Source: Microbotryomycetes sp. JL201 (taxonomy: Eukaryota; Basidiomycota; Microbotryomycetes). Taken from it: DNA of 64,000 bases. The stretch spans positions 153,656 through 217,655 of the forward strand of contig JAQYUZ010000029.1 in assembly GCA_033819885.1 (NCBI GenBank). The letters are read 5' to 3'. Numbering within the stretch: position 1 is the stretch's first letter; every line of letters begins with the position of its first letter. The notes beneath the pieces were generated by a model, which saw only the letters and a list, made by a program, of their open reading frames with translations, was not told where the DNA came from and did no database searches. The position numbers and the translations under genes were made by a program. Below, piece by piece: positions 21,144 through 63,854 of the stretch.

Positions 21144-21954
21144 TCATTTCTCTTTTGGAATGCCGTTTTGTAAGAGCATGAGGATCATGCTTTGTATATG
21201 CTCAAAAGTTTCTGACTTGAATCGTCCGTCGTAAAACTCATACGTTGGGTCGCATTGCTTTTGGAATTTGTCAAATGAACCACTCTTCAAGGGAATGTAT
21301 GAGCCAAGTTCCGAAGTCCTCGTCGGCTTGTGACGAACCTCAGAGAGTAGTGTGGTCGGACAAGGTGGCGACCGAGAGAAAGTGGTCAAGGCATAAGCCG
21401 ATGCAGAGTCGATGGTCAGTGGTGCAAGGCCCAGCATCAAGTGACACAGGATCGTTGGCCTCGTGGCATAAATGGCGTCTCAGAACAAGGCACAGAAGAA
21501 GGCACAAAGTCTCTCAGATTGTCTCGGCGCTGGATTTTCGAATATATTTTTTGATCGTAGCTCGCCGAGGTCTTTTTACTTGACTCCACCACACTGCTAT
21601 CGAAAGTATCTGTACCGTGCTGAAGACCTGGAGCCTGAATGGAGCGGGCAGCAAACCATCTTGATCACATCTCGTCAACGACACCTTCTCACCACCACAC
21701 TGGCGCAGAGACTGGTTCAATCTCGCCAAGCTCAGATCGATTCGCTTCGTCGTCAGCGCCTGTTTATCATCTCTTTCGAGAGAATAGCCGCTGATTTCGA
21801 GAAGGAAATCGTTAAAGTCGGTTCCTGGTCGTCGCGCCTGTTGCATGAGCGCGATTAATCCTGTCTGACGATCCTCGGGCACGGAATGATATCCTACGCG
21901 CCAATGAAAGGCAATTTCTTGCGGCGCGGCTTCAATAAGCGCATTGTCCGACAT
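21144..21954 (-). pseudogene. Decayed member of the WPS/RTG paralogue family (copy A2)
   Basis: The ATG at 21954 (MSDNALIEAAPQEIAFHW) aligns with the start of the neighbouring copy A1, and both share an LM..A..PGTD.ND.L block about 40 residues in. After about 110 residues similarity stops. It resumes near 21290 with only the C-terminal block (FDKFQKQCDPTYEFYDGRF, matching FQKHCGPNQLSYDWRYE in A1). The large middle part is missing and the joining sequence has stops in the expected frame. This is best read as a copy with an internal deletion. It lies 30 bp beyond the stop of the converging one-TM protein gene. Confidence 0.6.
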
Positions 21955-22273
21955 GTCGGGTGCCGAGGGAACCAAGTCTTCCCGAGTCAGAACAGAAGCC
22001 CGCAAGTCCACGGGCGGTATGCACATCGACTCCTCAGTGCTAACGCCGAGAGCGTCTATCATCTTGGAGCTTGAGAAACTTTCAAACACTGAAACAGACT
22101 TTATTGTTCCGCAAGATTCAGGATAGTCGCTTCATGGAGCGCCAAGCTGAGGCAGATCAGTACGAGGTGCTTCTGAGTGCTGTTGCCCAGCAAGTCTATC
22201 AGCTTGAAGCTTGAGGGACACGCAAAACTGTCAAACTCGCCGAAACGAATCATAAGGGATCACTTCAAACTCA

Positions 22274-24105
22274 TCACCAAGCTGCCTTCCAGACCTGAAC
22301 CCTCGCTCGGCCTCTGTCCTGCAGCTTGTACGGCCTCGACAAAGAAGCAGAGCTCAAACTGTGGTCTGTATATGGCAAAAATTTGCGAGACTCGTAACGC
22401 CAGTCGTATGAGAGCTGGTTCGGACCACAGTGCTTCTGAAACTCTTCGACCAATTCCGCCTGCATACTCGTGTAAGCAAACCTCTTACTGTATCCTGATT
22501 ATTTTGGTCAACCTTACCTCGATCAGTAGTAACCTTGCAGCAATGACAAGCTGCACCTGCTGCATACGAGTTCGGGCTCCTTGAAAGGCAAGAGCAGCTG
22601 TCGCTGGTTGGACGGCATGTGCCAGAGCTTGGGGATTTGCCTCAGCAAGCCGATTACACAGTGAATGAAAGAGGCGGAATGGAGCCTTTGCATGCTCGGC
22701 AACAGGCAAACTGTCCAGAAAGCTCGTGATATGCTCCGAAAAGAGTCCTGTACTCCTGCAGCCCGTCAGCATTCGCAGCTTGTTCACGAAGCTGACTGAC
22801 CCATTCTCTCAATTGCGAGGTTCCTGTGGAGCCCGGAAAAGAGCTTAGTTTATGAGCACTAGGTTAGCTTTGGAACCTTGCGCGATCGATCTTTCAACTT
22901 GCAAAGGCAAAGTTCGAGTTGTGTATCGACTTGTAGTCCCTGGCCGGCGCCCAGAGTGCCTTCACAAGCTGGCTCAAGGCTTCTTGCTCTGCAACACTTT
23001 GTGGCGTTGCAGCGTGGGCATGATCACCACTCCACGCTTTGTCAACTTGAATGCGTCCAGTTCGAATCAAGTGTGCACATTGTGGCGCCGTCTCGGTCGT
23101 AAACTTGTGCCCTTTGTCCTCAATGAATTCCAAGTCGGCCTCTACATGCGGGCCAAGTCGATGATTATTTTGCCTGATAACTCGACCGCGAAGGAAAGCC
23201 GTCGTGCGAGGTGATTTGTGGTTTTGAACAAGAGTTGCATGTCGACCAAACAGCATATCGACAAATTCTTGTTGCATCACCCCCATGATGTAAATCAAGG
23301 ACGGGGAAGGGGAAACGGACGACCGAAATGTTGCACAACTGCAAGTCCATCATCTGGCAACACGGTAGATGCGATAGTCTCAAAGTCTATCGCAGCAAAA
23401 GACTCGTCAACGCGCGGGTCGTACGTGAGCGCTGATGGCGTGTGGTGCACTAGATAGGTCTGACGAGCTGAGGTCAGCGTTCAGCTTTTCGACGCGCCTC
23501 GAATGCTGGCTCACATCGTCGACCGCGACCCCACTGAGCATTGCCTGAAACAACAACTCTTGTCCAGATTCTCGTGCCACAATACGCGCAACAGTGTACA
23601 GAACAGGGAATGCAAGCGCAAGAGTGAAGTTGTGCTCGAGGATTGCTCTGAGACTTTTGCTGCTTTTGTGCTGCAGCCGTATGATTTTTTAATGACGCCA
23701 GTCGGACAGCTTGAATCTTGCCCACGCTGCTGGCCCTTGTGCGGCAGTAATAGCCAGACACGCGTAGATGGAGTCTATGATGGTCATTCTGATTGCGGGG
23801 GACCGCTTGTCAAGAAACTGGCCCAGCCCACTCTCTGGTTTCAGTTGCCGCAGCCTCAAGTCGAACTCGGCCCGTTGCTTTCTGATGCTCCGACGGCGCA
23901 ACTCGTCATCAGTAATACCCGAATCTTCCCATACAAAGCTGCCACAGACTCCGCATAACCAATCGTTGATGTCAGTGCCAGGCTTGCAGGCTTCGCGCAT
24001 GAGCACGAGAAACCACTGTTTGGCAGGGTCATTGAGCGATTTTAACTGTCCGTTCAGGTCGTCGGCGAGCTCCGTCAGAGCCTTCGTGATCCACACCTCA
24101 TCCAT
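22274..24105 (-). pseudogene. Decayed member of the WPS/RTG paralogue family (copy A1)
   Basis: Segments at 23489-24105, 22894-23480, 22485-22787 and 22274-22465 follow the order of intact members at 34.6 and 62.3 kb. They include EFVDMLFGRH, HLIRTGRIQ, a helix ending QLVIAARLLLIE and the FQKHCGP block. Two lesions are visible: an in-frame TAA at 23689-23691, after which the same frame continues with family-like sequence (SLRAILEHNFTLALAF), and a one-base frameshift near 23295 just before LIYIMGVMQQEFVDML. The C-terminal basic motif of intact members is not found. An ATG 111 bases upstream (24216) is in frame, but the A1/A2 alignment favours 24105. Confidence 0.6.
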
Positions 24106-24276
24106 GCCAAGGAACAAATAAAAGACGGGTAAAAAGGGGGTTGCCGAGCCTGGGAGCAAATTGTAACTGCCGCGGAGGAGTCCGGCAAAACCTCCTAGTT
24201 GAGCAGGCGAGCTCATCGTGAATAGACAACATTCGACTTCCGATTACAGGAGAAAAGGGATTCACTGAATGTCCCT

Positions 24277-26017
24277 TCAAAGCTTTGAAGGCTCATAAGG
24301 CGGGTACCTGAAACTGAGCAAGAACTCTGCCCACATGGGCACCGACACTGACGAGCGATGGTGCGTAAACTCGTCGAATCCGCGCTTGCCGTGGTATGCT
24401 CCGTAGCCGCTGGCTCCGCTGCCTCCGAATGGCAATTGGAAGGGAGCGACGTGCATGATCACGTCGTTTTGAGCAATCTGTCCGAGCGCGTCAGTACACT
24501 ATGCTAGAGTCGAATTATAGCCCTCCCAGACTCACTCCACCACTGCGTGTCGAATTGAGCACAAGCTTGAAATTATCCGCAGAGGACGTGAACACGTAAA
24601 GCGCCAAAGGATTGTCTCGCTCGTTGACGAAGTTGATCATCTCTTGCACAGATTCGCACGACACGACCGGCAGGATAGGACCAAAGATTTCGCCGGCCAT
24701 TAATGAATCATCGGCGTCCACGTTCGTGACGACAGTTGGTTCGATGCGACGAGTCGACGCGTTTGTGTTGCCACCTACGACAACGTCCCCATGCGTCTCT
24801 TCGAGTAATTTAGAAATGCGCTGGAAGTGACGTTCGTTGATGATCTGTGTGAATCGATTGCTCTCGAGCAGCGATGACTGATCACCGGGAGCCTTCTTGT
24901 GGGATTTGGTAAATTCAGCCAAAGCCTTCTTCATTGCTTCGGCCAGCTTTGGTGCCGTCTTCTTTGAGCATAGAACGTAATCGGGACTGAACGAACGGTG
25001 TCAGCGCTCACTGGCGCATCCTTCGAGCTTGGACTCACGCGATACAAATCTGTCCCGAATTCAGGTACTTGCCCCAGATGATGCGCTTGCCAGCGACATC
25101 AATGTTGGCGTCATCAAACACAATCACGGGCGATTTGCCACCGAGTTCGAGCGTGCAAGGCGTCAAATGCTTGGCGGCGGCCTCGGCGACGATTCTGCCT
25201 ACCGTTCCATTACCGGTGTACAAAATGTGATCAAATTTGAGCTTGAGTAAGGCAGTGGTTTGGTCGACTGCGCCGTTGACGACTTTGACACAATCGTCGA
25301 GGTACTTTGGGACCAGCTCGGCCAGAAGCGCAGCTGTGTTTGGGGCAAGCTCGGACGGCTTGATGATAGCCGGACAGCCCGCTGACAAAGCAGCCATCAG
25401 GGGTTGGAGCACGAGCAAGACTGGGAAGTTCCATGCGCCAATGATGAGCACGACTCCCTTTGGTTCTTTATTGATCGTTGGTTTCAAAAGAGAGAACTGC
25501 AATCCGGCCGAGACCTTGGTTGGCTTGGCCCACTTGCCGACTTTTTTGATGGCGTCTTGTATTTCGACAGCGAACGGATCAAGCTCTGTCGATGCCGTCT
25601 CGAACGCAGGCTTGCCAAAATCGGCTTTGACGGCATCGCACAGTGTCGTCTTGTTTTCGGTCTACAATCCGATCAGAATATCGGAGAGTTTATAAAAGAC
25701 AGCTTCGTCAGCGTGGCGCACCTACATTCCCTTGCAGAAGCGAAAAAGTCACTTGCAATCAATTGCTTCAAAAGCCGAAGCTTGTTCTGGCGCCACTCGA
25801 CCTTGCGTGTCTTGTGCAACTTGAAGAGTGCCTGCAACTCGTCGTACACCTGTGTTGCAATGCGTGTCAGCGTAGCTTTCGATTGTGGGGCCGAGACGAT
25901 TTCGGTGGTCGCCGAAGGCCGAGCGGCGAGCTCAGGTCCCCTTGACATGCATGCACATGCACTCGGTCTGCTTACAGGCTGGATCGCATCAATCTGCGTT
26001 TCCTTGAATGGAGCCAT
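24277..26017 (-). CDS. Fatty aldehyde dehydrogenase (HFD1/ALDH3A2 type) ending in SKL
   Basis: Five exons (25976-26017, 25757-25930, 25039-25661, 24536-24986, 24277-24477) give 496 residues. The enzyme oxidises long-chain aldehydes to acids with NAD(P)+. Seen in order: GAWNFPVLLVLQPLMAAL, GCPAIIKPSELAPNT, the LELGGKSP block, the catalytic cysteine context GQICIAPDY (split by an intron) and the EIFGPILP block. The chain ends PYEPSKL, a textbook type-1 peroxisomal signal, at the point where membrane-bound relatives begin their hydrophobic tail. This suggests a soluble peroxisomal enzyme. The second intron (25662-25756) uses a GC donor (GCAAGT), the only choice that restores the WRQNKLRLLKQLI-TENK helix. 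It is the tandem paralogue of the gene at 26259-28639, with similar protein but far fewer introns. Confidence 0.92.
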
Positions 26018-26258
26018 GATGGTGAAGGGCAGAAAGAACACAAGGAAGCGGTCGTATGACGAAGTTCCCCGATCGGAACAGCGCTTCGCACGAGCTGCGG
26101 CCTAATTTAGCGCGCAACATCAAAGTACAAGTTTTGACCGCCTCTGAATGCACAAACAAAAGAAAGGGGGGGCCATATCTACAGCATATGAGAATTCTTT
26201 AAGACTAGACTGCGAGTATTCGGCAAGCTTGAACAGCCGGTGGCAATTCGCCTCCGCC

Positions 26259-28639
26259 TCAGACGAACCGCTTGATCAAAGCAACGAGAGCTGCAATGGT
26301 CGCGAGCGTCTTGAACAGCTTGTACAAAGAAGACGGCTCTTTGCGAATCGTCTCGCCCGTCATCAACAGGAGCATGCGCAGCTTGCCGGGAGTGTAGGGC
26401 GGGTAGCGAGAGGCCAACAAAGCATCGGCCCACGTCGGAACAGAGGCACTGGCGCGTTGGTGCGAAAACACCTGCAGATCTCATCATGTCAGTCGGCGTA
26501 ATCACTTGAACAACGTGAGGCCAACGCACATCGAACGAGCTGTAGAAGGAGCACTCGTCAGAATCGCTGCGAGCAAGACAGGCTCTTGAGAAACGAGCGC
26601 TCACTATTTTCCGTGATAATTTCCTACGCCCGACTTGCCCGTACCACCAAAGGGCAGACCTGGGGATTCACGTCGTTGTCAGCTTTTGACGCCCTGGCTT
26701 CGGCATCGGCAGATGCAACTGACCAGGAATGAGGAAGTGAACCAAGACATCATTTTGTACAAACTGAAACGGCAGACCAGTTAGTGTGTTGCTTGCCTTT
26801 CGGCAGAATCTACTTACGCCACCGCTCCTCGTGTGGTCAAAAATGTATTGCGCGTTCTTCTTGCTTTGCGAAAACACGTAGATGGCCAAAGGCTCATCAC
26901 CGCGGTTGATGAAATCTGCCATCTCTTCCTTTGTCTCCATCGTGATCATCGGAAGCAAGCTGCCGAAAATCTCGTCTAGTGGTTCGATCGTCAGGCCTGA
27001 AACCGTTGGATCTCTGCGGCGGAATACACATACTCTCCATGAGCGAGTCGTCGAATCCAACGTTGCTAACTACGGTGGGTTCCAACTTGTTTGTCGCGTC
27101 GTCGCGTTGACCGCCGATGACAATTTCGCCTTTTGTGGCATCGAGGATCTTTGTCAACCTGTTGTAGTGGTTCTTTGACACAATTTTGGGGAACTGAGGG
27201 TTCTGCACCAAAGGCAAACCTTGGCCAGACTCCTTTGAAGGCGCGTTGAATTCTTTGAGTGCATCTCGAATTGACGCGATCAGCTTCGGTTGCATCTTTT
27301 TGCTGCACAAGATGTAGTCGGGTCTGCAAACAGAGGTATGTCAACGAGCTGCGTCCGAATAGAAACGAGGCAGCGTACGCGATGCAGATCTGCAAGAGTG
27401 TGTCAATACAATACGTCCGATCAAAATCACGGTCGAGCGTACCTGTCCAGAGTTTGTAAACTTGCCCCAGGCGATGCGACGACCAGCAATCTTTACGTCC
27501 GCGTCATCGAGAACAATGCTCGGCGATTTGCCACCGAGCTCGAGAGTCACGGGTGTCAGGTACTCGGCGGCAGCGCGCGCGATAATGCGACCGATCGATC
27601 CTGCGGTGGCCCGGCCGTCAGCAGCCTTGAAAGTCAAAGCACTTCCTATTCGTTGCTCACCAGATCCGGTGTAAAAGATGTGGTCCCAGTTGAGCTTGAG
27701 CAGCGCCGTTGAAGTGTCGACACCACCGGTGACGCATTTGTACGCAGTCGGGTCGAGGTACTTGGGCACGAGCTGAGCCATCACGGCAGCCGTGTTGGCG
27801 GCGACTTCGGAAGGCTATCGATTCCCGGTCCCAAGGTCAGATGATGCTGCACCAAAGCAGGTGCAAAAGGTGCAACAAACTTGCCTTGAGAACGGCAGGG
27901 CAACCAGCGGAAATGGCTCCGAGCAATGGGCCGAGAGTCAGAGTGACAGGAACTATCACACGAGATTAGGACTGTTCATCAATGACAGGGGTATACAAGA
28001 GCACTCACAGTTCCACGTGCCAATGACGAGTGCTACGCCTTTTGGCTGTGGCGTAACCTTGGGGGCGGCGATCATCCAGGTCGCGGCTGTTTTGACTTTT
28101 GTTGGCTTTGCCCACTTTTCAACGTGAGCGTAAGCTTCGTTGATCTGCGGAAAGTAAGGGTTGTCAGCCCGGAGCTGAGACAATCAACAGGCGAAAGTTG
28201 GCCTTGCCTCTGCCTTCATCGGGTTGAGCTCTGCGATGACCGTCTCTGTGCCGTGTCGACCCAAGTCTGCCATGATGGCGTCCTTGAACAGTTGTTCGTT
28301 GTCTTGCTGCAAAAGCCAACAGTCAAAACCATACAGAGAGTGGGGTGCGGTCAGTCTCGGCGATCGGGCCCCTTGTCCAGCTCGACTGACCACCATGAAG
28401 CCAAGTTGCTTGATCTGGTGTTTGCGCCATTGCAAGTCGCGAGTCTTGTGCGTGAAGAATGTTTTGCGCAGCTCGTCAAGGTACTGCAATGCAATGCATC
28501 AGCTTGGAATACGATTGTTCGAGAAGCGCACGCAGGCGCGCGAGCACTCGCACAGCTGCTGCATCAAAGGACAAAACGGACGCACCTTTGGAATCTCGTC
28601 CAGCGGCGTGTCCTTGTGTGATGCAGCTGCCTGGGCCAT
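26259..28639 (-). CDS. HFD1: Fatty aldehyde dehydrogenase (HFD1/ALDH3A2 type) with tail anchor
   Basis: Fourteen exons (28586-28639, 28394-28483, 28208-28306, 28009-28144, 27885-27952, 27661-27814, 27443-27600, 27379-27389, 27034-27323, 26818-26975, 26724-26763, 26605-26659, 26530-26539, 26259-26471) join to 511 residues. Family marks are WNFPVTLTLGPL, the LELGGKSP block, GQICIAPDY, ENEIFGSLLP and GKYSFDVFSHQR. The C-terminus ends in a hydrophobic stretch closed by lysine and arginine (LATIAALVALIKRFV), as in membrane-bound HFD1/ALDH3A2, which act on sphingolipid- and quinone-precursor aldehydes at ER or mitochondrial membranes. Exon 8 is 11 nt and encodes the catalytic cysteine; exon 13 is 10 nt. 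Introns 28145-28207 and 27815-27884 need GC donors. The splice after 27034 was placed at acceptor 26976 because that restores the conserved DSLM.NEIFG join. Confidence 0.9.
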
Positions 28640-29152
28640 TGTCAGATGCTGTACGGCTGCGAGAGAAAAGTGGTGTGGGGCAGCAGCGACTGTCTGGGTC
28701 AACTGCTTTCGCTGCGGACTTTGCCCGTCGCCGCTGGCGAGCTCTCGCGCTCGCACTCGCAATCGGACACTCGCACTCGCACGGGCCCCGGCGACTCGAC
28801 GTTACCGAGTTTGGCAATTTCCTGCATCTCACACACGACCAACACGCATGACAGTTTTTCTTCCGTGTGTATGATACTCAGCCGAAGGAGACGTACAAAC
28901 AATTTTGACAGCACAGCATTGCCACTGCCGGCGGGCGCCAGAGAGCCAGATCAGCCGGGGAAAGGTCACGTGCCTTGTGTGCGTACAGTGTGCAAGATGG
29001 TCGATTTCAACAAAGAGCCGTTCACTCGATGACATCGACATCGCATTGCGCAATCGCCAACCGGATCAAAGGAGTCAGTGCCGGGGCACCGCGGACCTGG
29101 CTCCAAGCGCGCCGCCTGCCTGTCAACCGTCGATTGGCCTGCGCGAGACATC
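28640..29152. promoter_or_regulatory. Divergent intergenic region
   Basis: A gap of 513 bp separates the leftward aldehyde dehydrogenase from the rightward family gene B1. It is rich in CG and CA words around 28740-28800. No frame is supported. Confidence 0.4.
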
Positions 29153-30827
29153 ATGGACTTGGAGTTTGCTTTCGACACTCTCCGGCGCATGGCTGGCGGT
29201 CGTCAATCTCATGTCAACGAAAATCTGCAGACACTTCTCCGCAAATGTCAGGCGATGACCTCGATCGAGCGCACTTTGCTCCTGTGTGCGGCGTCGAATC
29301 GCTTGCAAATGTCACAGCAGGTGGCAGATCTCGGAGATCCGCCAAATCTTGCTCGGGTCGAACGTATGCCGGCTGTTCTTGAAAGTATATTCCGACTCAG
29401 TCAACTCGCCGTCCTAGTCATTTTGAGCCAAGAAACATGGCCTTCAAGGCTGGCATATGTACTACCGGACCCCCGATACGGCTCACGTGTCAGCACAAGC
29501 CTTCAACATTATATGACGGCGAGCAACAGCGATTTCCGCACCGTCAAGCCCGCTTTCGTCGCCACAATGGACCTTGTCTCAAAGCTTGACAGTGTGCAGC
29601 AATTGGAAATGTTGTCAAGAATCACGGTGAGCTGATGAGAATCTTTGACATAGGATACTTCGACGAGATTTCTTACACTGACGATTGTCATTAAGCCCCG
29701 GCCAAATCTCTCCAATTTCGAAAACGTTCTGCTGCACGTCCTTTGTGATTACAAATGTAAGCCACGCGGTTGGAAGCCGATCTTCGTCAACAACACTGTA
29801 ACTTCGGATACGCGTGCCTTTGTCAACACCGCTCTGCAACTTGTATTTGGTTTCTTCGATTGCGTTGGGATCGCAGGCAAGAACGATGGCCACCCCGATT
29901 TCATGTCGTGCTCGGCGTATGTCGAAAAGGAGAACTTGAAAGCAGACGTCGTTCCTTGGATAAAAGAGCGAATGGATGCATTTGTGGATGCGTTCGAGAT
30001 CCGACTTCGCAAACTCGTCAAATATGGCACGCCGAGTCCGCAAGAATGGGTCACCCACGACAGGCTCAGAAGGTCTGTCGAGTCGGACATCACATGTTTT
30101 TGCGCCGACCCAACGAAAAAATATCCGCTGACGGGCCGACAGCCGTTGAACGAGGTAAGAGGACTCTGACAAGGTTACAGAATACTAAGCACTGACATGA
30201 ATTGGCAGTTGTTTTCTCATGCGCACTTTCTGGCCTTGATGATGTGTCAGTGCTTCAGGGCTTCCAAACTGCTTTCTCGAGATCTGACTTGCAATCCCAC
30301 ACAGCCCACTTCGTTCATGCTGCGTCCCGAGCTATGAATGATAATGATGTACACTTGCCCAGCATATTTCGGCGCTTTATCCTCCGCATGACACAAAAGG
30401 ACGGTACTCGATCGAGCCCGAGCGGCGCTTGGAGCGCGGCAAGAACTTGGGTTGAATATATCCAGGTTTTTGAAGTCACACGCCTTGTGGTCAAGAATGA
30501 TGTGAGCTCGCACTCCATTTATCGGGATGTTGACTCATGTCAATCTTGGCACAGCCGGCCCTTATGCGCACGATCAATCATATTTGTCCTATTCCACTGA
30601 ATTGGCGATACTCAGCGCATTGTCACATTGATCTGGAGCGATTAATGCACGATATCGCTCTCACCGCTCGGTCATACCAAGCTCAAGCAACGCCACCGAC
30701 AACTTCAGCAGCCTCTGACAGCTTTGTTGCGGAGCTCACGCGTCGACAACGAAAGCGTTCTAGCGTTACGCCTGAAATGCTCAGAATGAGGCTACGCAAT
30801 CCCACTTTCCGTCGATACTATGCCTGA
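29153..30827 (+). CDS. WPS/RTG paralogue family protein B1, unknown function
   Basis: Five exons (29153-29626, 29696-30154, 30209-30245, 30305-30501, 30555-30827) give 479 residues. I do not recognise the family. Visible blocks: an N-terminal helical region with ETWPSRLAYVLPD near residue 90; LLHVLCDYKCKP and FGFFDCVGIAGKNDG in exon 2; PLTGRQPLNE at the exon 2 end; LFSHAHFL on the 37-nt exon 3; YIQVFEVTRLVVKND at the end of exon 4; NWRYSAHCH and a basic tail ELTRRQRKRSSVTPE in exon 5. No signal peptide or membrane helix is evident, so it is probably intracellular. The ATG at 29153 is preferred over an upstream GTG. Its tandem neighbour B2 has the same five-exon plan. Confidence 0.75.
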
Positions 30828-30948
30828 AATGAGAACCTGCACCGCTTTTTAGGGCTCATCAGGAGCCACAACTTGTGTGCCGCGGAAATTGGAGATCGCT
30901 TGCTGTTCGCAGAGCGCCCTGCGCTCGACTGCCTTCTTACATCGCGGA

Positions 30949-32671
30949 ATGGAGCCGGCCCTTCCAATCTCTTTGAAGGCGGCAGATAGTCTTCGGATAC
31001 TGCGGCAGATGCTTCAAGCACAACCTCCAAATCTGCTAACGGCCCTGCCAGCAACCTTGGCGCGGTTGCAGGCTACCAATTCAGAACCATATCATCTGCT
31101 TATGACAATCGCTGCCGATTCTCAAGCAGTATCCCAGCAACTGGCTGATCTTGGGAATCCGATACAACTTCATGTTTTCGCCAACAGCCGTGCACTCATC
31201 AAGAGTTTGATCCGTCAGAGTCAACTCGCTTTACTTCTAATGAATGGGCACAGAGAATGGCCGTCCTGGCTCGCTCGCAAGCTGCCTGAAGCCGAAAAAG
31301 GGGCTGTGTTCAATGCCAGCTTGCGTCAATTTCTATCCGCCAGCGGGTTAGATTTCGACATCGCCCCGCTTGCGGTGGTTGCATCTATGAATGTCATAGA
31401 CTTTTTCAAATTGTCTCAGCCCTTGAATACGCTGGCCGGATTTGCGGTGAGTCTCCTTCACAGCTAAGGAAGGTGGAAGTTTTTGCCTCTGCTAACAATA
31501 GTGTTCGCGGCTTCAGCCACCGCCTCACCCAGAATCTGAGCTCTCGTCTTTCGAGAGCGTCCTGCTGCAAGTACTCTGTCATCTCGAGTGCAAGCCGCCC
31601 GGTTACCATCCAGCATACATGGACGGCCGGGTCGCCTCTGAAGCGCTCGCTTTCGTCAACCTAGCTCTCCAACTTGTCTGCGGCTTCTTTGATTGTATGG
31701 GCGTGTCTGGTACACATAAAGGGGAGCATGCCTTCTTTAGATTTTCCGAGGACGAGACTCGCGACGCCCAACTCCAGAATATGTCTCCGTGGATTGAATC
31801 GTGCGCGACGAGTTTCACCGTCAATTTCGAGACCAAAATCAGAACATTGATCACCTTTGGAGCACCGTCACTCGGCTCTCGTTCCACTCACAATCAACTT
31901 CGCGGAAATGTGGCTTCCATCTTGAACGGCTTTTGCTCGAGCTGCTCTCCAGCGGCTTGCAGGAAAAAGTATCCTCGCACGGGTCAGCAACCTCTGAACG
32001 AGGTGAGTGTTTATTTGAAGTTTTCAGTTAGATCCTGATCTAATTGGTCCTGTTACAGCTCTTTTCCCATGCCACCTTTTTGTTTGACAAGATGGGTCAG
32101 TGCAATTTTCCAACTCAGTGGCAGCCAGATCGGAGCAAAGGATTAACATCTGGACCAATGCAGATCACTTCATTACGGTTGCAACTTGGGCAATGAATCC
32201 AATTCGCTACCGTGGACATGTGCCTTACAGTTACGGGGCGTTCCTGCACCGCCTCGCACGCCGGGAGGGTGGCAACTCGAACCCGACTGGGGCCTGGAAA
32301 ACATCTTTGACCTATTTAGAGCGCATTCAAGTGTTCGAAGTGACCCGCATGGTGATCAAGAGTGATGTCAGTCCTGGACGAGGCTCGTGTGATTCAGTCG
32401 ACTGATCATACGCCCTTCTAAGCCTACCCTCGTGCGCTTGGTAAGCGAGCAATGCTCCGTGAACTGGCAATATTCAGCACAATGCCACGCAGACATTCAA
32501 CGATTGGTGAAAGATATTATTGATCTCGTCAAAAGCGGAAGTCATCATCGTCAGGCTCACAACTCGTCGGGATCGTCTAACAGCAGCTTTGTAGCCGAAC
32601 TCACACGCCGACAGCGAAAGCGCTTTCGCGTCACGGCTGACATGCACGACTTCAAGCTATGTCTATACTAG
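30949..32671 (+). CDS. WPS/RTG paralogue family protein B2, unknown function
   Basis: Five exons (30949-31446, 31517-32002, 32059-32095, 32164-32366, 32423-32671) give 490 residues. All four introns fall at the same positions and phases as in B1, and exon 3 is again exactly 37 nt. Shared blocks: REWPSWLARKLPEAEKG, LLQVLCHLECKPPGY, CGFFDCMGVSGTHKG, RTGQQPLNE, LFSHATFLFDKMG, YLERIQVFEVTRMVIKSD, NWQYSAQCHADI and ELTRRQRKRFRVTAD. It starts 121 bp after the B1 stop, so a tandem duplication is likely. The two proteins differ widely outside these blocks, which suggests age or fast divergence. Function is unknown. Confidence 0.75.
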
Positions 32672-32835
32672 AGTACTCTAGCGGTTATTTCTGAAATGCA
32701 CCTTCCTCACGCGCCCGCGTTGATGCAGATGAAAGATCGTCGGCGTTTGAGTACGGAATGGGAATTGGAACTAGGGACTCGTATTGGACTTGACATTTTT
32801 CTATTTGGTTTCGGTTTAACCTAGGGTTTTCCTCA

Positions 32836-32975
32836 CTCGCTATTCGTAACTCATTCGGTCGCATCAGGTTGGTCTCTGTTGCATGCTATACTCGCTATTC
32901 GTAACTCATTCGGTCGTATCAGGTTGGTCTCTGTTGCATGCTATACTCGCTATTCGTAACTCATTCGGTCGAATC
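32836..32975 (+). repeat. Direct repeats of a 55-bp unit (left end)
   Basis: The word ctcgctattcgtaactcatt starts at 32836, 32891 and 32946, giving two full units and one partial unit of 55 bp with few changes. Confidence 0.9.
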
Positions 32976-33320
32976 AGATCACTGCAACAGGTTATGAGCC
33001 CTTCGCGTGATGCTGCGCAACTGTCGGATGAGGACCGACTATGGGTGGTACCGCTCCGGAACGCCGGAGACTGGTCCCACTGGTCGTGGGCAGTGCGACA
33101 TGTCTTGAAAGGAAAAAGACGTCGCACATGTCCTCGTGCCCGCTGGTGGCGTGTCCCAGCGGTCACAAGCGTCCTCGGACCCGGCGGAAGAAAGAAGCCG
33201 ACAAAGAGGACTTCAGGATAACCCTTCACCACGCTCAAGTGGCAGGAAGGCGAGGATCTAGACACGCATTTGGATCTGATGGAGCAATACGTCAGCAACT
33301 AGGGGCAGCTCGACTGTGCC

Positions 33321-33821
33321 TTGCCCGACAAGTTGGCCGAAAGCGCATTGCAGAACTCGATGCCTGCGTCGTGGCAAGAGTTCTTGTCAACATATTGCCG
33401 CACGGGACCGAAGACGAAGACTTTCGACGAGACCAAACAGGCATTCTCGCAAGAATGGTCGCTTCGTCAGTCGCGAGGTGCCGTTTCGGAGGTCAAGCAC
33501 GAAATGGGCATGCAGTCGACCACCAAGCACAAGGACGCTCCCTACAAGGAGAAACCGCCAGCTAGGCCGGGCAACTGTCGGAACTGCCAGCAGCCTGGTC
33601 ATTGGGCGCGGGAGTGCCCGAAGGCGCTTGTGACGGCAAATCTCGTAAAGCAAGCCGACGAGCAGTACAGCGACGATGAAACGGCCAGTCGGATCATCTC
33701 GATGGGTGGACTCGCCGCGCTAGACGTCGACATTGTACCCGAGTCACCATCGTGTGTCGAACGTGCAAAAGAAGAATGTGTGGATACTGGACTCCGGCAG
33801 CGGCAGACACTACCTCGGTGA
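33321..33821 (+). pseudogene. Copia-type gag fragment with zinc knuckle
   Basis: Translation shows a gag-like end (ALQNSMPASWQEFLSTYC) and a CCHC zinc knuckle, CRNCQQPGHWAREC, which binds RNA in retroelement capsids. Upstream, the same gag continues in another frame (LRNAGDWSHWSWAVRHVLKG near 33054) with an in-frame stop at 33301-33303, so the gene is broken. Confidence 0.7.
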
Positions 33822-34065
33822 TCGTGGATCCTTGTCACACTACGTCGAACAGAAGCTCGTCGTCTTGGTGGCGGATGGCCATCATGTCGAAGCCGTCGGT
33901 TATGGACGACTCCGTCTTCGTTTCGAGTCCGGCTGGGAGAAGGAGCTGGTCGTGTGGCACATTCCCGGTGCTGAGCACGGCATACTCTCAGTGGATGCAT
34001 TGCTCGATGAGAACATCGGTTCAAAGCTCCACAAGGACGAACAGTCTCGCAAGCACGCTGCTTGA
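33733..34065 (+). pseudogene. Copia-type protease fragment
   Basis: The frame contains VWILDSGSGRHYLGDR, the D-S-G active-site motif and flanking pattern of copia aspartic proteases, then a short hydrophobic region (VVWHIPGAEHGILSVDALL) typical of the protease end. It overlaps the gag frame by about 90 bp in a different register and stops at 34063-34065, before any integrase motif. It is a truncated relic. Confidence 0.7.
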
Positions 34066-34103
34066 CCTCGACAGTGGCAAAGAGTGGAGCAGGCTATGCC
34101 GTC

Positions 34104-34424
34104 CTCCTTGTCGGCTTTTCTTTTGTCCACCGGGTCCGGGGGCGCTTGTGACCGCCGGGACTCGCCACGAGCGGGCGCGAGGACATGTGCGACGTCTTTT
34201 CCTTTCAAGACCTATCGCACTGCCCACGACCAGTGGGACCAGTCTCCGGCGTTCCGGAGCGGTACCACCCATAGTCGGTCCCCATCCGACAGTTGCGCAG
34301 CATCACGCGAAGGGCTCATAACCTGTAGCAATGATCTGATACGACCGAATGAGTTACGAATAGCGAGTATAGCATGCAACAGAGACCAACCTGATACGAC
34401 CGAATGAGTTACGAATAGCGAGTA
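34104..34424 (-). repeat. Inverted copy of the copia relic's left end
   Basis: The reverse complement matches 32890-33222, including two 55-bp units (at 34336 and 34391) and the gag start. It differs by scattered substitutions. Confidence 0.85.
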
Positions 34425-34564
34425 TCAGATCACTGCAACACGCATTTCACCGCCTTTTCTAATTGATCGTGCTCGCCTCAAGCTCCTCATTGGGCAAAGT
34501 CCGAGGACCCGTGTCGAATTGCGAACGGCTCCCAGTTGCACCTTTTCTTTTTCATCGATGAAAA

Positions 34565-36463
34565 ATGCCACAAGAAGCTCACGCCACGGCCTTGCTCGAG
34601 ATTGGTCTCACGAAACTGTGGCAGCAAGCGCGAGAGGGTCTGACGCTTGTGTCTGCGTCTTCATCTTGTGCCTCGCACGAGATCATCGCACAGCATTTCG
34701 TCGAGCTTCTACCCCAATTCTGCGAGATCAACACCAATCTCCACGTGCTGGTGAACGCCACGATCGCATTCGACCTGAACTCTGCTGGAATGCAGACGCG
34801 TGCAACGCAGCATGAATCCTTTCGGTCTTCACTCGACCAGGCAATTCGCGAGACAACACACCTCACGAATGACAAAGCTCGCCTCGAGCATATCCTCAAT
34901 ATTCCCCTGCTTTGCCTTGTGTTTTTCAAATTTGTCAAGGTTGGCGTTCACGCACTATCTCATGCTGATCCGACTCGCATTCCCGACACCATCTGGCACC
35001 AAGTTTCGGACCTGATAAGCTACAATCACCCTGGCCAACTACGCTTGTCAACTTTGGGTCTGGCTGTGGTAACACTACATGCTGCGGTTGAGCATTTCCA
35101 TTTGCAAGAGGTTTTCGTAGCTGAAGCCGCCGTAAGAGTAGCTTGAGCAATATCTCGAAATTAGAGTTGGTCTGAGGCTCGCTTGTTGCAGGTTCGCTAC
35201 ACTCCAAATGCTCGACGAGCTCGGGCGGATTTCTCTTTCGATGCTCAGTCGGACACCGGCATGCACTCTCGCAGTCCTCATCGCCCTCGAAACCACGCTC
35301 AAGGCAACCGATTAACACTTAAGGAAATATGTGCGCTCCAGGTGCCAAGCGGACAACCTACTCCTATTCTGAGCGCACACGGCCCGCCTTTCATTTTGAC
35401 ATCCCCTGACCTTTCTCAGATTCGCCGACTTGTCCTGCTCCAACAGGAGATATTTGACATGTTGACAGGCCGAGCGTCAATCACAGATGGAGATGGGCAT
35501 TACTTTGAGCTTTCTCCAAAATTCTTTAAACGCTTGACTTCACATGACGGACATGCTGTTGCTCCCTGGGCACGATTAGCTGCCCTCAATCAAATCATGC
35601 AACTCGCCAAGGTCTTTCGATTGGATCATGTGCCTCTCATGGCTTTGCTAGTCAGAACGGGAATTGTTCACGGGGAAGAAACTGCCGAACAAACTCGCCA
35701 ACTAGTCTCGACGACGATACTCGGAGGAACTTGGCATCCGCCATATGATCCAGACATGATGGCGCCACCAGAGCCTGTCGAGCACTTGGGTCAGCCGTTC
35801 TTGTCGGTGCGCGCAAAAACGCGCAATCTCGACCAGTTTCAATCAAGCTGACAGCATTTCATGACATTGACCCCAGTTGACCGCACCTTTGGCACGCTCC
35901 TCTGTTTACTATGTCTTCCGTAGGTTATTGCAGGTCGTGTAAAGGAGCTCGGGCCTCGTTCTGGTCACTGAAATTTCAGTGGACCGCTTCTGCAGGCTCT
36001 TTTCTGCAACATGTCGACGAGTTTTTCAAGCACAGCTACAAAGATCTTGACCACGTCAAATTATTCTCGGACTTTTGCAATCGCGTCATTCTTGCACGTA
36101 CAGGCATTCGCAAGAATGCCGGCGATGTCCACGCGTTGGAAGCGTACGAAGCCGCGTATGCGTGGCTTGAGAAATGTCAGGTAGTCGAAGCTGCTCGATT
36201 GGTCCTTTTTGAAGTATGTCCAGCACGCACACAGTCTCATTGTCAGTCACGCTCACCATTTTGAACAGCTCACAGATCAGGGACGGTTGATGGAGTTGTT
36301 CTCGCAGCGGTTCGATTCGAGACACGAAAGGTACGATCCGATGTTCACGGCAGGATACTTTTTACCAGACCCTACCCACCACGCTGCTGCGTCCCTGTCC
36401 TTGAGGCAGATCCGGCGCACCGGCATTTCACAGACCGAATTTCGTACGCAGTGGATGCGATGA
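34565..36463 (+). CDS. WPS/RTG paralogue family protein C, unknown function
   Basis: Five exons (34565-35131, 35192-35806, 35877-35936, 35980-36213, 36269-36463) give 556 residues. It is closest in plan to copy D at 60.5 kb: exon 1 is 567 nt in both. Shared blocks are LEHILNIPLLCLVFF (as in A1), LLQQEIFDMLTGR followed by LLVRTGIVHG, FRRLLQVW-FLQHVDEFFKH, CQVVEAARLVLFE just before the last intron, and the tail RQIRRTGISQTEFRTQWM, which matches RMTRRTGVTTEDLRSRW in D. The 60-nt exon 3 was placed because it restores the alignment with A1 and D. There is no signal peptide, membrane helix or known domain. It lies directly downstream of the copia relic. Confidence 0.72.
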
Positions 36464-36536
36464 GACGTTCGTCTACTTCGTTTCTTGATCTTACAACAGT
36501 GACGCAATGTAAACTTCTTATCTCTCTCTTGCTGGG

Positions 36537-37837
36537 TCACCGCCACAAATGACACTCTTGGTCCCAGCTGGCTGACGCCACGACGCCCTCGTCGTAATAA
36601 CTCCAAGCGATACCGACGACGAATTCCGTATGACCGTCGTAGATCCGCTCTAATCTGGCGCCACCCATACCCGTGGGACCAAATGTGCCGACAGACTGTT
36701 GAGCACTGTTGCCCAAGGTGGCGCTGTCCACGGACCAGATTCTTGAAGTCATGTCGTAAGATCCTGACGCGAGAACGTTTGGCGAGTGAGGGGACCAGCA
36801 CACCTTTCGGACGGCATACTCGTGTCCAAGTAGGGTCGCCACCGTGACGTTGGGTTGCATCGTCGGAACGGTTGGATTTGGTCCCGCGTTCTGAGATGCC
36901 ATGCGCAAGTCGTGGATGCGAATTGTACGATCAACAGAGCCGGTCGCGATCAAATGAGGGTGATATTTGTTCCAATCGAGCGACAAGACTTCTGTCGGGT
37001 GCGCTTGTACTGTCAATGCCGCCTCGGCAGGTTGTCCTGGTCCGCCACCCGCGACTGGGGCACGTGTATCCCACACCTTGAGGAGTCCGTCTGTTGAGCA
37101 TGACGCAATTGTCGCCGGTTGTGACGGTGCAAACATGGCCGAGTACACGCAGGCCGTGTGCGCCGGAATTGTCGTAAGTGAGCTTGGCCGCTCTGGCGTC
37201 CACTGCGAGAAGCGGACTGTCAGCAATGGGAGCAGGTTTAGTCTGCGGAAGCATGCGAACAAGCTTGATCGAGCAGTCCCAGCTGCCTGTCGCAAACAAG
37301 TCTTTCTGCACGTTGCTCCAGTCGACCGAAAACACTTCGCGCTGGTGCTCGTGCCACTTGCGAATGGGAAAGTCCTGGCGAGGAGAGGAGAACGAGCAGA
37401 GTCAGCCTCAGACCAAGAATGGAATTAGTACAGGCGTACGTTGAGCATGATATCCCACAGCTTGACGCTGCCGTCGCCGCTGGCCGTCACGAGCTGGTTC
37501 TCGTGCATTTCTGACCAGGCCAAGTCGTACAAACCATCCTGGGTGTTAAAGCTGGTGTGCATGAATGTCAATTCAGCTCATGAAAGAGTCTGTTGAGCAC
37601 GTTGACGCACAACTTGTCGACTTGGACTGGCGGCGGAGCTGGTGCTGCAATTTGAGGCCCCGGTGCGCCATCTATCGACGCGATGCTCAATCTTCCATTG
37701 CCGACGAGTCCAAAGTTGGCGCTGCCTGCGATCGCAAGCTTGTTGGGAAAGAATGGCGAGAACGCAACGCCGTAACACGCAAACCTGAGACCCGGTAAAG
37801 CATTGAGCACGCCTGAATGACGAACATCCACGCTCAT
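36537..37837 (-). CDS. PEX7: Peroxin 7, PTS2 receptor (WD40)
   Basis: Four exons (37611-37837, 37440-37551, 37261-37374, 36537-37202) give 372 residues. PEX7 is a WD40 propeller that binds the N-terminal PTS2 signal of matrix proteins in the cytosol and delivers them to peroxisomes. Diagnostic segments are [20 protein letters not shown] near the start, [14 protein letters not shown] after intron 1, [14 protein letters not shown], the [15 protein letters not shown] block and [10 protein letters not shown] at the end. Several GH-WD-type repeats are visible. A proline- and alanine-rich insert (about residues 58-73) precedes intron 1. Its 3' end faces family gene C, with stops 73 bp apart. Confidence 0.93.
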
Positions 37838-47892: not shown

Positions 47893-47920
47893 ACGCCATA
47901 GTGCAATACAACAGTTGACT

Positions 47921-49269: not shown

Positions 49270-49523
49270 GGCGTGGGCTCAAACGCGTGAAGGCTCGAGC
49301 AGATAGAATTACTCGACAGGGGGGCTACAAGGACGTCTTTGGAGGCAGAGGGCCTGCGCAAGTGGATTTTGAGAAGATCTTCGGCAAGCTGATACGGCCG
49401 AGGACTGCTGTCATACCTTCGATCTTGCCAGATCTAGGGTCACCTGTCTGCGCTCGGGCCCCTCGACTTGACTCTTCTCCAAACACCTCGCACTGTGCAC
49501 ACTCGCCATACATAGTCCCCAGA

Positions 49524-50907: not shown

Positions 50908-50922
50908 GAGACAGATACAATG

Positions 50923-57400: not shown

Positions 57401-58188
57401 GAGAGTGGCCTGTGATTCACATGTGTCAAGGCGCAAACGAAGCTCACGTCTTTGACTTTGTCGCCGTCTACGAGCAGGCGAGTCGAGTTGGTTCTGACAT
57501 CTTCCAGCACGATCGAGCCATCGTCTGTTCTGTAACTAAACACGCCATCTCCGGCTGACAAATGACGTCCAGGATTGAATGTGAGCGTGCACAAACCGAT
57601 GTGTAGCGGCGTTTCGGCTCACCTTCAGCCAGCCAGTCGACAGACTCGCGCTCTGCCCAAAATGTCCCATTGGCCAAGTGCTCGATTGTCATCGTTTTGA
57701 GATGCTCTCCGGTGAACGAGTGATGCCCCGAGAATAGAAAAGACATGAAAAACGCCACAAACAGTCCTGCCAAGACCAGAACGAGGACGACGGAGCACAG
57801 CATCCGGCGGCGCTGTTTGTACGACCGGTTTAGAATGGCTCAATCGTAATCGCATTCAATGACGAACTCTGTGCCTCGTGAGGTTCGTTCCGGCTAACGT
57901 GAGACTGCCGTGTAGCTCTTTGTGCCACCGATCGTCTTCCGAGTTCAGCAAGCCTGCATGCTTTTCGTCGAGGTACACCAATTCTCGGGCGCCGTCATGA
58001 CTGAGCGTGCTATCACTATCGTCGTCATCGTCATTATCATCGTCAGTGTAGCGTGGCCATGGCGCGAGCGGATTCGGGATTGGCAGTGCGCTCAGGGCGC
58101 GAGGGTACAGCATGTGCAAAGGGGTTTGGTCCCTTCTGTGCTGTGCTTCCAGCTCGAGCTCGACGGCGTCCGGGTCGCCAGGCGGCAT
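54495..58188 (-). CDS. Dipeptidyl aminopeptidase (DPP4/STE13 family)
   Basis: Fifteen exons (57906-58188, 57623-57838, 57448-57554, 57300-57383, 56967-57239, 56747-56917, 56328-56690, 56041-56273, 55642-55985, 55515-55590, 55098-55456, 54923-55048, 54812-54866, 54714-54752, 54495-54678) give 970 residues. It is a type II membrane protease of the Golgi or vacuole type. An acidic cytosolic head precedes the helix MLCSVVLVLVLAGLFVAFF. The beta-propeller follows (WSPDGSKLAFLSFDE), then the hydrolase with GWSYGG (Ser), HGSGDDN (Asp) and the DSDHS His. STE13 trims mating pheromone; DAP2 is vacuolar; which applies is unclear. Intron 56691-56746 uses a GC donor (GCGAGT). The first splice (57905/57839) is weak, and an in-frame ATG at 58356 could extend the head. 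Confidence 0.9.
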
Positions 58189-58452
58189 GCTTGCTCTGGG
58201 GTGGGCGAGGGTCACGAGACTGGGCGTGGCCTGAGCGCGACGCCGATCGACACAGGGGGCCGGAAAATCATGGTCAGATGGGAGATTCCAGATCTTGGTT
58301 TCAGACTTGTGACTATGACCAACTGAGCTTGCAATGTTACAACTTGTCGCCGACATACCAGTCGCGACGCGTCAAAGTGGCGGCAGCGCCGCGCGCGCGC
58401 TCGTCTGCTCTTCTTCCCGTCTCTTCACGCCCCGTCCTACCCCTGCGCCACC
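58189..58452. promoter_or_regulatory. Divergent promoter of peptidase and PCNA genes
   Basis: A gap of 264 bp separates the leftward peptidase start from the rightward PCNA start, which has a good context (gcgccaccATG). No clear cell-cycle box was seen within it; two lie in PCNA intron 1 instead. Confidence 0.4.
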
Positions 58453-60407
<1,955 letters not shown>

Positions 60408-60496
60408 TCGCATCTCGCCTTCTTTCCAAAGCCGCTTTCACCGTCTTGAATCCGTATCTGTGTTTACTCTTTTGTTGCACAATGTAACATCCATTT

Positions 60497-62347
60497 CTAG
60501 CCAGAATGACTCCAGCGAGACCGCAAATCTTCAGTTGTCACGCCCGTCCGCCGGGTCATGCGTGCTGTCATACGTGGCAGGCTGTGTTCTGAACCACTTT
60601 CGTGGGCCTCATTTGCTCTACGTTTCCGTCTTGCTGCTGCCTTCTTCATGCTGTGCGAACGTTGCACCATCTTTTCAAGCTCTTCTGCTGAGGGAAATTC
60701 GTGCAGGTGGACCGGCAGGAATGAGCGAGGACGAAAAGCCAGGTTGTAGCTCGCGCGGTGCGGGTCGCATTGCGCAACAAACTCGGCGAGCCAATGAGTC
60801 TTGAAGACTGTATCAGCACACTGCGGATCTCTGCGGCTCGATTCGCCGACTGACCTCTGTTAGCAGCAAATACCCGGCGATCAGGAGTTGCGCTTTTTGA
60901 AGCAAGGTTTCGGCTGTATGCCAGGCTGAGACGGCGTTGATATGTGCACTAGCCTCTGGCAATGTCGCTACGCGAAGCCCCTCCTCAGATGTATCCGGCA
61001 GAGAAAGTCGTCGGCAGAGCGTCCAGAAAAGGTGCAAAAGGCTTCGCTTCGTTTGATCCGCAGATAGATGCCCGTGCTTGACAAATTGAGCCGTCAGAAA
61101 CCTGTCGAGCGAGTGCAGGAATGTGAAGCAGACCGATTTGACGGATTCGCAGCTCATCAGCTTGGTGACATTTCCAAAGTATCAGCGTCCGTCCCGTTCG
61201 GTACGGTATACCCTCTAGTGACATACAGCAATGAAAGGTTGCAAGACTTTGATCTTGAGTGCCGGCTTGCCCGTGTGCCACGTTGAGATCAGCAGTTTGT
61301 TGAGGACTGCGTTTGGCCTGCTCGCGTGTGGTCCTCTTTCCCCGACTTTGTACCAGGAAATATGCCAGGGCACTGTGCCAGTCCTGATCATGTAGGCCAA
61401 ATCAGGCGCTACTTGATTGGTGAACGCTAGCAACAGGTCGCGAGCGGGTTCCGAGCGTAAGAAGAAGGCTGGGTGAAGCGAGTGATCATGTCCGCCAAGC
61501 AGGTCAAAGGCCGTTTGCTGGATGCAGGCGGCGTAATAAACAAATTCATGACTTGGACTTCCCAAGCGGCTTTGGGAAATTAACAGCAATGGTGGATTGG
61601 AGGCCCCAGGACACTTGAACTGGCAAACCTCGGCAAGCGTCAGGTGATGGGGAGCCGCACTGGCGACTTGGTCCAATGTGCTATCGTACTCGAGACCACT
61701 CCTCTTCGGTACGGGAAGCTGCGCATACAAGACAGTCAAGAACGAGAACGGCGACGCAGTCTTTGCGCTCCCGGACTCACATGCGCCTCGGTGATTGCTT
61801 CTGATGCCATTCGCAAAACCTCGTTCCCGTCACGCTGTGCGCCGGCTTCCTCTACTTGTATCAAGCGAATCAAGCTTGTCAGAAGCATGGCAAGCTCTTT
61901 GTGTTCCAATTGTGACAGTTCGGCAAACTCTGCGTGCTGCAATTTTCCAGACTGCGCTTCAGGAAGCTGCAGCCACCCGCTTGGCCAGAGCTCGTGTGAC
62001 CGGACAGTAATAAGACAGATCCAGCATGCTTCTTCGAAAGCTGAACAAAGCTGAGTGTCCGCTAGTATCCGGCTCATCGGATCAAGAGACGAGAAGGACT
62101 TGATAGAGGCTACAACCGTCTTTTTTACAGCGCGCATATCGCTGCCAGAAGCCTGTCTTAGTCCTAGGGTGGCACCGGCGCAATGCGTGATCAATCGGCG
62201 TTCCGTACTCTGTCCGTCTTGCAACTGCTGCATAAAGTCTGCAAATGTCGACTCGACGGTGACTTGTGATGAACTCTTTGGGTTAATCACTTGCTTCCAA
62301 AGTGCTCGAATGGCTTCAGAAAGGGCTTCAGAAAGTGCTTCAGACAT
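60497..62347 (-). CDS. WPS/RTG paralogue family protein D, unknown function
   Basis: Four exons (61781-62347, 61227-61718, 60855-61160, 60497-60799) give 555 residues, one fewer than copy C. Blocks shared with other copies: HELWPSGWLQLPEAQSG in exon 1 (with B1/B2), QTAFDLLGGHDHS and MIRTGTVPWH in exon 2 (with A1, C, E), KAQLLIAGYLLLTE at the exon 3 end, and in exon 4 EFVAQCDPHRASYNLAF plus the tail RMTRRTGVTTEDLRSRW. The N-terminus repeats SEALSEALSEAI. No signal peptide or known domain. The last intron was set at 60800-60854 because that length (55 bp) is usual here; an earlier acceptor would also keep the frame. Confidence 0.75.
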
Positions 62348-62644
62348 CGTGTTACGCAGTCGAAGAATGAAATAAAGGAACCAGTTGGACCCGAAGCGCA
62401 TCTCCGCTGCTTTGCTGTGCTGTGCGCCGGAGATTACATGGCTCCTGGCTAGAAGCGGCGAATCCAAGCGGTGACAATTCGGCTGTGGAGACACGGCTCG
62501 TGGCCATTCAAACAAAGGCGCACGGATGGTGCCGAAATTTGGATTGCAGTGGTTCCATGGCCTACGCATAGGGCAGCACAACATCCGACCGAAGCTCCAA
62601 AACCCTATCACCAATTAGTTATCTCTCAAGCGCCATCACTTTCT

Positions 62645-63854
62645 TCAGCATGCCCATCGCGCCTCGAGCATTTTTGTCGAAATTCCCGAGCGCCTCGCTT
62701 GCCTCGTTGTCAGCAAATTTGCCGTTGAAGACGGCTGTGGTGCTAACGTGCGTAAGCGTAAAGGTGGAGTTGGCAGCTCTTGTGTATCCAAGGGAGCTTC
62801 AGGACTCGGCGGCTCGGGTGGGGCAAGTTGACTGCATGGCAAATAGTCTCGCGAGACGAAATTCCAATTGAACAAATGGTGAGGCTGCAGGCCCCGAGGC
62901 GATGGCTGGGACTGAACAAAATTTTGAAACTGCGACACCCAGTCACACTATGAGTCGTACAGAACATGTAAGCTTTATTTCTACTTCTTCATCTTACCGA
63001 TCAGGAAACACACTCACACGAATCAGAAGCAGCCTCGTCAGCACAAGCCAGCGCGCTCGGCCGAGCCAAGTAGGCACTGCGTGGAATGCTGGTTGGAGTG
63101 AATTCAGCGGCAGATGTTCAAAAGTTTCCCGTCGTCGAGTGTGGAAGTTTTCAACGACAACAAACTTGCTGCGGAACATTGTCAGGTCAGGCAGTCTCGA
63201 GTTGCCCTGGGCTAAATGGATCGATTGGATGAATGCGGAGGCATAATGAATGAAGAGGACTTTCAAACAATGTGCAAGTCAACATGAAGGTCTTTTCTAG
63301 GCATGCGGGGACTGACAACAAGCTTCTTCGACCAATGGATGGGAAAAAATCTGATAAAGCACGGAGAGTCAGTCAAACTGTTCTTTGACCTGCTATAGGA
63401 AGGCTTTGCCCGTACTTGCCTTTCCCAGAGCGCTCCTTTGCCTGTGGTCAACAGATGTCCAAAGCGGCGACACGACTTCACCGATTGCCTTCTCCAAATT
63501 CGCGGTCGGGATGGCGGTTGCGTTCGCCGTGTGCGTGGCCAAATATCCGGTTCTGATAAGGCTTGCCAAACCCGATATGACTTGATGCTCGAAAGCTGTC
63601 CGAAGCAGGAAAAGCTCTGCGAGAGTGCCGTCACGAGCCGCGTCAAGCTCAATTGTCTCGACGAGGTCGGTAAAAAATGATGGGCAAGTGCGCCCACGAC
63701 CGAGCACAAGGTCGACAAACTCCTGCAGTAGAACAGCGCCACCGTACACCAACTTGTCCTCTGGGCTCGAAATTCTGCCGAATCGATGCGAAATAGGTGG
63801 CGAGTACTTTGACGAGGGGCAATGAAAATTCAGGTAGAATTTCCACCTGGACAC
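62645..63854 (-). pseudogene. WPS/RTG paralogue family copy E, lacking its 5' part
   Basis: Family blocks appear from the middle onward: ISSPEDKLVYGGAVLLQEFV-DLVLGRGR and SLIRTGYLATH (63393-63854), ARWLVLTRLLLIRV (before the donor near 63010), and FVQSQPSPRGLQP through the tail RSGISTKMLEARW (62645-62919). The N-terminal exon of ~189 codons seen in C and D should lie to the right but is not found; only about 70 bp separate the first block from a long run of A. The copy is either truncated or interrupted by that run. The retained part shows no obvious internal stop. It is in tandem with copy D, with 297 bp between. Confidence 0.6.

Follow-up and report, generated by a model that had tools for sequence, protein, structure and literature searches.

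The TLO (Med2-like) genes of Candida albicans form a multi-copy fungal gene family (PMC4214616), and a comparative genomics study of smut fungi deals with host specialisation (PMC5897528). A multi-copy gene group was investigated here in a 64,000-nucleotide (nt) stretch of Microbotryomycetes sp. JL201 DNA (contig JAQYUZ010000029.1, positions 153,656–217,655 of the forward strand), referred to as the window. A first-pass annotation of its letters had proposed a dispersed family of paralogues at seven loci, named A1, A2, B1, B2, C, D and E. Sequence comparison indicates that these loci are almost certainly one gene family, old and strongly diverged. Its seven members lie within 43 kb; four reading frames are intact, two are decayed and one is cut by the window edge.

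Relationship of the seven loci

BLASTP was run against a database of the seven members and 2,000 shuffled decoys, the best decoy reaching E 0.13. Among A2, C, D and E, five of six possible pairs were joined (C-D, C-A2, D-A2, D-E and E-A2), with best E-values per pair, taken in the better direction, of 2.2e-12 to 1.4e-7. C matched D at 5.8e-11 and A2 at 1.4e-7; D matched A2 at 2.5e-12 and E at 2.6e-9, and E matched D at 1.5e-9. The C-E pair was undetected by BLASTP. B1 and B2 are 41% identical (E 1.2e-112), and neither matched any other member at E ≤ 1. Leave-one-out profiles recovered C (1.7e-19), D (2.5e-32), E (8.7e-20) and A2 (4.4e-27). A profile that contained neither B gene (members C, D, E, A2 and A1) matched B1 with E 1.9e-5 and B2 with E 0.013, against 0.14 for the best of the 2,000 shuffled sequences, and hhalign aligned B1+B2 with C+D+E+A2 at 95.6% (E 1.3e-8, 282 columns). 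The gap left by BLASTP between the B genes and the rest is closed because profiles and hhalign link both halves.

Six of the seven members were thus clear by profile. A1 was marginal, with a leave-one-out E-value of 2.1e-3 (best decoy 0.25) and a BLASTP match to A2 of only 0.06; its putative membership is based on an N-terminal block and the last-exon block FQKQCDP..YDGRF, which matches FQKHCGP..YDWRY in A2. With this reservation, the comparisons confirm the single paralogous family first proposed. A six-frame profile scan of the window (1,609 segments of at least 25 amino acids) revealed no eighth member, all outside matches being at E 0.15 or worse. Self profile comparison indicated no internal repeats (second match probability 0.1%).

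The loci were found where the first-pass annotation had placed them, and our splice models of B1, B2, C and D reproduced its gene ends (Table 1). The E locus was present too and reaches as far as 63920, beyond the annotated 63854. B1, B2, C and D encode 479, 490, 555 and 562 amino acids, respectively, and together contain 15 GT-AG introns of 34 to 70 nt. The introns of B1 measure 69, 54, 59 and 53 nt and its spliced frame is open; D intron 3 is only 34 nt long in the splice model. E stays in frame only with a GC-AG intron starting at 63419, and has its stop at 62645. Its exon 2 directly follows T77-CAG on the E strand, at the very edge of the window, which places exon 1 beyond it. The corresponding run of 77 A (63924–64000), a poly-T before the CAG acceptor on the E strand, is an extreme pyrimidine tract within the intron or else an artefact of the contig end. 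A2 carries an in-frame TAA (23689–23691), and somewhere between about 23350 and 23280 its frame shifts by 1 nt, its other exons being recognisable; A1 has a stop and a frame break besides its lost exons. As annotated, both are best read as decayed, although the two A2 lesions may be sequencing errors. Neighbouring members are separated by 121 bp (B1-B2), 297 bp (E-D) and 319 bp (A2-A1).

Table 1. Members of the gene family and adjoining features, in window coordinates
Feature	Coordinates	Strand	Details
B1	29153..30827	+	complete; exons 29153-29626, 29696-30154, 30209-30245, 30305-30501, 30555-30827
B2	30949..32671	+	complete; exons 30949-31446, 31517-32002, 32059-32095, 32164-32366, 32423-32671
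C	34565..36463	+	complete; exons 34565-35131, 35192-35806, 35877-35933, 35980-36213, 36269-36463
D	60497..62347	-	complete; exons 62347-61781, 61718-61227, 61160-60855, 60820-60497
E	62645..63920	-	3' part of gene, exon 2 onward; modelled as exon pieces with phases
A2	22274..24105	-	decayed; profile without A2 matches its X-joined pieces, E 4.4e-27
A1	21144..21954	-	relic; N-terminal exon and last-exon motif, exons 2-4 gone
Aldehyde dehydrogenase genes	24500-28500	-	two, in tandem, between A2 and B1
Mobile-element fragment	32835-34425		between B2 and C; CCHC zinc-knuckle frame 33303-33818

Intron positions are largely conserved, as had been claimed. The last intron is in phase 0 at a common position in all six members assessed, and the second is in phase 0 in B1, B2, C, D and E, that of A2 being read from the acceptor only. 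A phase-1 intron with donor GTCAGT is common to B1, B2, A2 and E; near this slot the intron of C is in phase 0, and D lacks one. B1 and B2 have four identical intron slots and phases. The first intron could not be exactly aligned between members (columns 228–256). Nine of the 14 introns in B1, C, E and A2 lie within 8 columns of a D intron, compared with 1.06 expected, and none of 20,000 random placements reached this number, although this test is partly circular because splice sites were chosen with help of the sister genes. Of the 15 introns in B1, B2, C and D, 4 have the donor GTCAGT, which also occurs in the phase-1 introns of A2 and E.

Shared sequence blocks were in part as annotated. 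(I/V)RTG is present in C, D and E, and its fourth carrier is A2 rather than A1. The N-terminal pattern E.WPS..L...LPE describes its three carriers only approximately: B1 reads ETWPSRLAYVLPD, B2 EWPSWLARKLPE and D ELWPSGWLQLPE. The C-terminal tails, seen in the B1, C, D and E models, are as quoted: B1/B2 have TRRQRKR, and in C, D and E RR(T/S)G(I/V)(S/T) leads into a few residues that end in W. Across members the N-terminal exon is poorly conserved, the middle and tail being more constant.

Divergence of the copies was next quantified. For B1/B2, the proportions of synonymous (pS) and nonsynonymous (pN) differences were 0.74 and 0.40, with a synonymous distance (dS, Nei-Gojobori method, NG86) of about 3.6, and their introns are 38–51% identical. 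With synonymous sites near saturation and introns diverged, this is therefore an old pair; its substitution pattern points to purifying selection. These values are the dN/dS comparison that the first-pass annotation had proposed, the other pairs being too diverged to measure. Identity at codon positions 1/2/3 was 0.55/0.65/0.37 for B1/B2 and 0.41/0.48/0.31 for C/D. The second position was most conserved in all 10 pairwise comparisons of B1, B2, C, D and E, by a small margin in deep pairs and without a control; composition alone may add to the excess there. In a tree built from all members but A1, B1+B2 was the only supported group, and C, D, E and A2 formed an unresolved fan with long branches. 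The tandem layout described earlier is therefore right, with B1 and B2 alone supported as sister neighbours. The lineage-specific, fast-diverging birth-and-death family suggested by the first-pass annotation is a conjecture at this stage.

Protein properties and candidate roles

Searches of known families were uninformative. In Pfam, no family reached E ≤ 5 when B1, B2, C, D or four exon pieces (from A1, A2 and E) were the queries, and NCBIfam gave no match for B1, B2, C and D. A strong match to a known family, named at the outset as the finding that would speak against a new one, was thus absent from both. Family consensus sequences had only sub-cut-off Pfam matches (M20_dimer 0.041, Dynein_AAA_lid 0.44, TPR_Trm732 2.2), and searches of solved structures by profiles and consensus returned one chance-level match each (E 0.58 to 1.9). 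With B2 and D as queries, no relative was found by tblastn in GTDB genomes and IMG/VR contigs, where the scans used six exact 8-residue patterns for each query and reach close relatives only; three scans gave pattern matches without relatives and one gave no pattern match. The family was not found described in the literature, which was available in part and was searched without the organism name, so that a description cannot be excluded.

The 33 best-conserved alignment columns comprise 17 A/C/F/L/V, five P, four R, three Q and one each of D, G, S and T. No catalytic-looking cluster occurs among them, in keeping with the annotated lack of enzyme motifs and with the Pfam result at E ≤ 5. The C-terminal 60 residues of B1, B2, C, D and E form a basic tail (isoelectric point 9.5–11.8, net charge +2 to +9), and short strings resembling nuclear localization signals occur in D (RRKRR) and B2 (KRFR). 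By Kyte-Doolittle hydropathy, the highest 10-residue mean near the N-terminus of B1, B2, C and D was 1.42, in C. These proteins have no strongly hydrophobic N-terminal stretch, consistent with the annotated lack of a signal peptide. A secreted effector family was rejected, as no signal-peptide-like N-terminus was seen in the four proteins by this hydropathy measure, no dedicated predictor being used. The effective number of codons (ENC) was 56.6–58.4 and G+C at synonymous third positions (GC3s) 0.52–0.54 in B1, B2, C and D; their ENC values were higher than in 9 or 10 of the 11 frames nearby (47.7–59.8), some of which are incomplete. In our reading of the sequence, this weak codon bias would suggest low protein abundance.

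Folds were predicted for D exon 2 with five relatives (predicted local distance difference test, pLDDT, 42.6) and for D exon 2, intron 2 and exon 3 (pLDDT 44.4). Regular structure in both low-confidence models is helix, with much coil, except for two two-residue strands in intron-derived residues. Foldseek with the 44.4-pLDDT model gave 127 matches at E ≤ 10 and none at E ≤ 0.001; among the best 50 of the 127, the top matches (G protein-coupled receptors and others, E from 1.2) were rejected as chance.

Our preferred reading, to which we give a probability of roughly 0.38, is that the family encodes soluble, non-enzymatic, helical proteins that belong to a larger assembly, probably in the nucleus, with a basic tail, a partner-specific N-terminus and a tandem origin. 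That the proteins are mostly helical and non-enzymatic is a likely prediction; a nuclear adaptor or regulatory role is a tentative one. Intact members would be soluble intracellular proteins built mostly of helices, without a catalytic centre, and would serve as binding or adaptor subunits in the assembly. The arginine-rich C-terminal tail would make contacts or direct import into the nucleus, and the N-terminal exon, which is variable, would determine which partners each paralogue binds. The copies would have arisen by tandem duplication and diverged under protein-level constraint, some of them dying.

Several observations weigh against this adaptor reading. One aspartate and one arginine column (319 and 515) are invariant in all seven rows and may leave room for a functional site. 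The tail charge is just +2 in E, and strings resembling nuclear localization signals were not found in B1, C and E. The claim that membrane helices are lacking probably holds for the family, but 19 residues of C (110–128) have a mean hydropathy of 2.03 and could be one. Weak codon bias is also seen in ordinary neighbours, such as the S9 peptidase frame (ENC 59.8). Both pLDDT values are too low to call a fold and concern D exons 2–3 only. As for the 'undescribed system' of the first-pass annotation, it found no support: no partner gene or mechanism was seen, though no systematic partner search was made.

Helical, fast-diverging and basic-tailed proteins are common among the subunits of nuclear complexes, a character that the family proteins may share. 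The seven genes could be highly diverged extra copies of a known conserved subunit (for example of the Mediator tail, or of helical-repeat type), locally expanded like TLO/Med2 in Candida. The TLO genes provide a precedent for a multi-copy Mediator subunit (PMC4214616). Pfam gave no match at E ≤ 5 and therefore none to Mediator families; the consensus matches (E 0.041 to 2.2) stayed below the cut-off, and no usable solved-structure match was obtained, leaving this explanation somewhat unlikely. Identity with a specific Mediator subunit (Med5 or Med2/TLO) was rejected for want of a Pfam Mediator profile match at E ≤ 5, a level at which a very remote relation would escape. Another candidate is an ordinary uncharacterised fungal family with a housekeeping or metabolic accessory function, unnamed only because Pfam lacks coverage. 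Many fungal proteins fall outside Pfam, B1/B2 bear the marks of purifying selection, and the genes around the family are of ordinary metabolic and housekeeping kinds. A group of seven within 43 kb, decayed copies among them, exceeds what is typical of a conserved family, however, and we consider this explanation unlikely.

A young, fast-turnover family engaged in conflict, whether self/non-self recognition, a selfish element or host interaction, would fit the tandem copies, two of seven decayed, the poorly conserved N-terminal exon and the Copia-like element between B2 and C. We nevertheless regard it as quite improbable: B1/B2 appear old and under purifying selection, recent copies were not found within the window, signal-peptide-like N-termini are lacking (maximum 1.42, C), and no Pfam domain at all was matched, hence no NLR, HET or toxin domain. 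A bolder version, an array of polymorphic helical recognition or conflict proteins in which a diversified N-terminal exon confers specificity and the tail is constant and nuclear-targeted, unrelated to described fungal recognition families, is very improbable; if true, self/non-self discrimination or genome conflict would be example roles. Domesticated or decayed transposon genes were also considered, since C lies next to a Copia-like fragment that bears a zinc knuckle and inverted arms of 229 nt. Members keep three to four introns in largely common slots and have no transposon domain match, and repeats of at least 25 nt within 20000–37000 are limited to the aldehyde dehydrogenase pair and the element itself. 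This origin is exceedingly improbable.

Neighbouring genes and mobile elements

The neighbours encode an alcohol oxidase-type GMC enzyme, a START-domain protein, a TPR protein, FF/WW-domain proteins, an NAD(P)H-hydrate dehydratase and an S9 peptidase. The alcohol oxidase neighbour scored 427 bits against PDB 6h3g, which we take to be a basidiomycete enzyme, and 388 bits against 5hsa, presumably the Pichia enzyme. Together with the short GT-AG introns, these scores would suit a basidiomycete source. A WD40 protein gene is convergent with C and a PCNA gene with D; the PCNA frame (59244–59798, + strand) has an acidic stretch after the matched PCNA region. The two aldehyde dehydrogenase genes share 65-nt blocks, at 25296 and 27752, that are 75% identical. 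A search for tRNA genes found none.

The element between B2 and C is, in our reading of its gag-like frames, Copia-like. Its inverted arms (32888–33116 and 34197–34425) are 229 nt long and 97% complementary, with 55-bp tandem repeats at one end. Elsewhere in the window, frames 2906–3361 (- strand) and 3911–4396 (+ strand) encode a nearly identical protein stretch (SPGVVIFLEVIDLL.QLSFFFGEVGLLRVTAQL). Its presence on opposite strands marks an inverted duplication, perhaps another copy of an element.

Comparison with described families

The family matches no protein family searched and may be an ordinary orphan family, as things stand one among many. In fungal genomes, lineage-specific biology lies hidden in multi-copy families without names. 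The splice models allow searches for this one with whole proteins, where plain reading-frame searches see separate exons only. An orthologue of known role, if one exists, should be found by a profile built from these models; a family without an orthologue would be a clear functional target.

Mediator Med5/Nut1 and other helical-repeat nuclear subunits come into consideration for the predicted helical composition only. No Mediator family in Pfam was matched at E ≤ 5, and the members are about half the length of Med5. With the uncharacterised orphan or paralogous families of basidiomycetes, such as those of the smuts (PMC5897528), it shares the lack of a known domain; that study deals with host specialisation, whereas the proteins here have no signal-peptide-like N-terminus. 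The TLO family (PMC4214616) is likewise a set of multi-copy, fungal, non-enzymatic and presumably nuclear proteins. Pfam detected no sequence relation between the two, and the TLO genes are described as telomere-associated, whereas the present proteins are 480–560 amino acids long and their genes have three to four introns.

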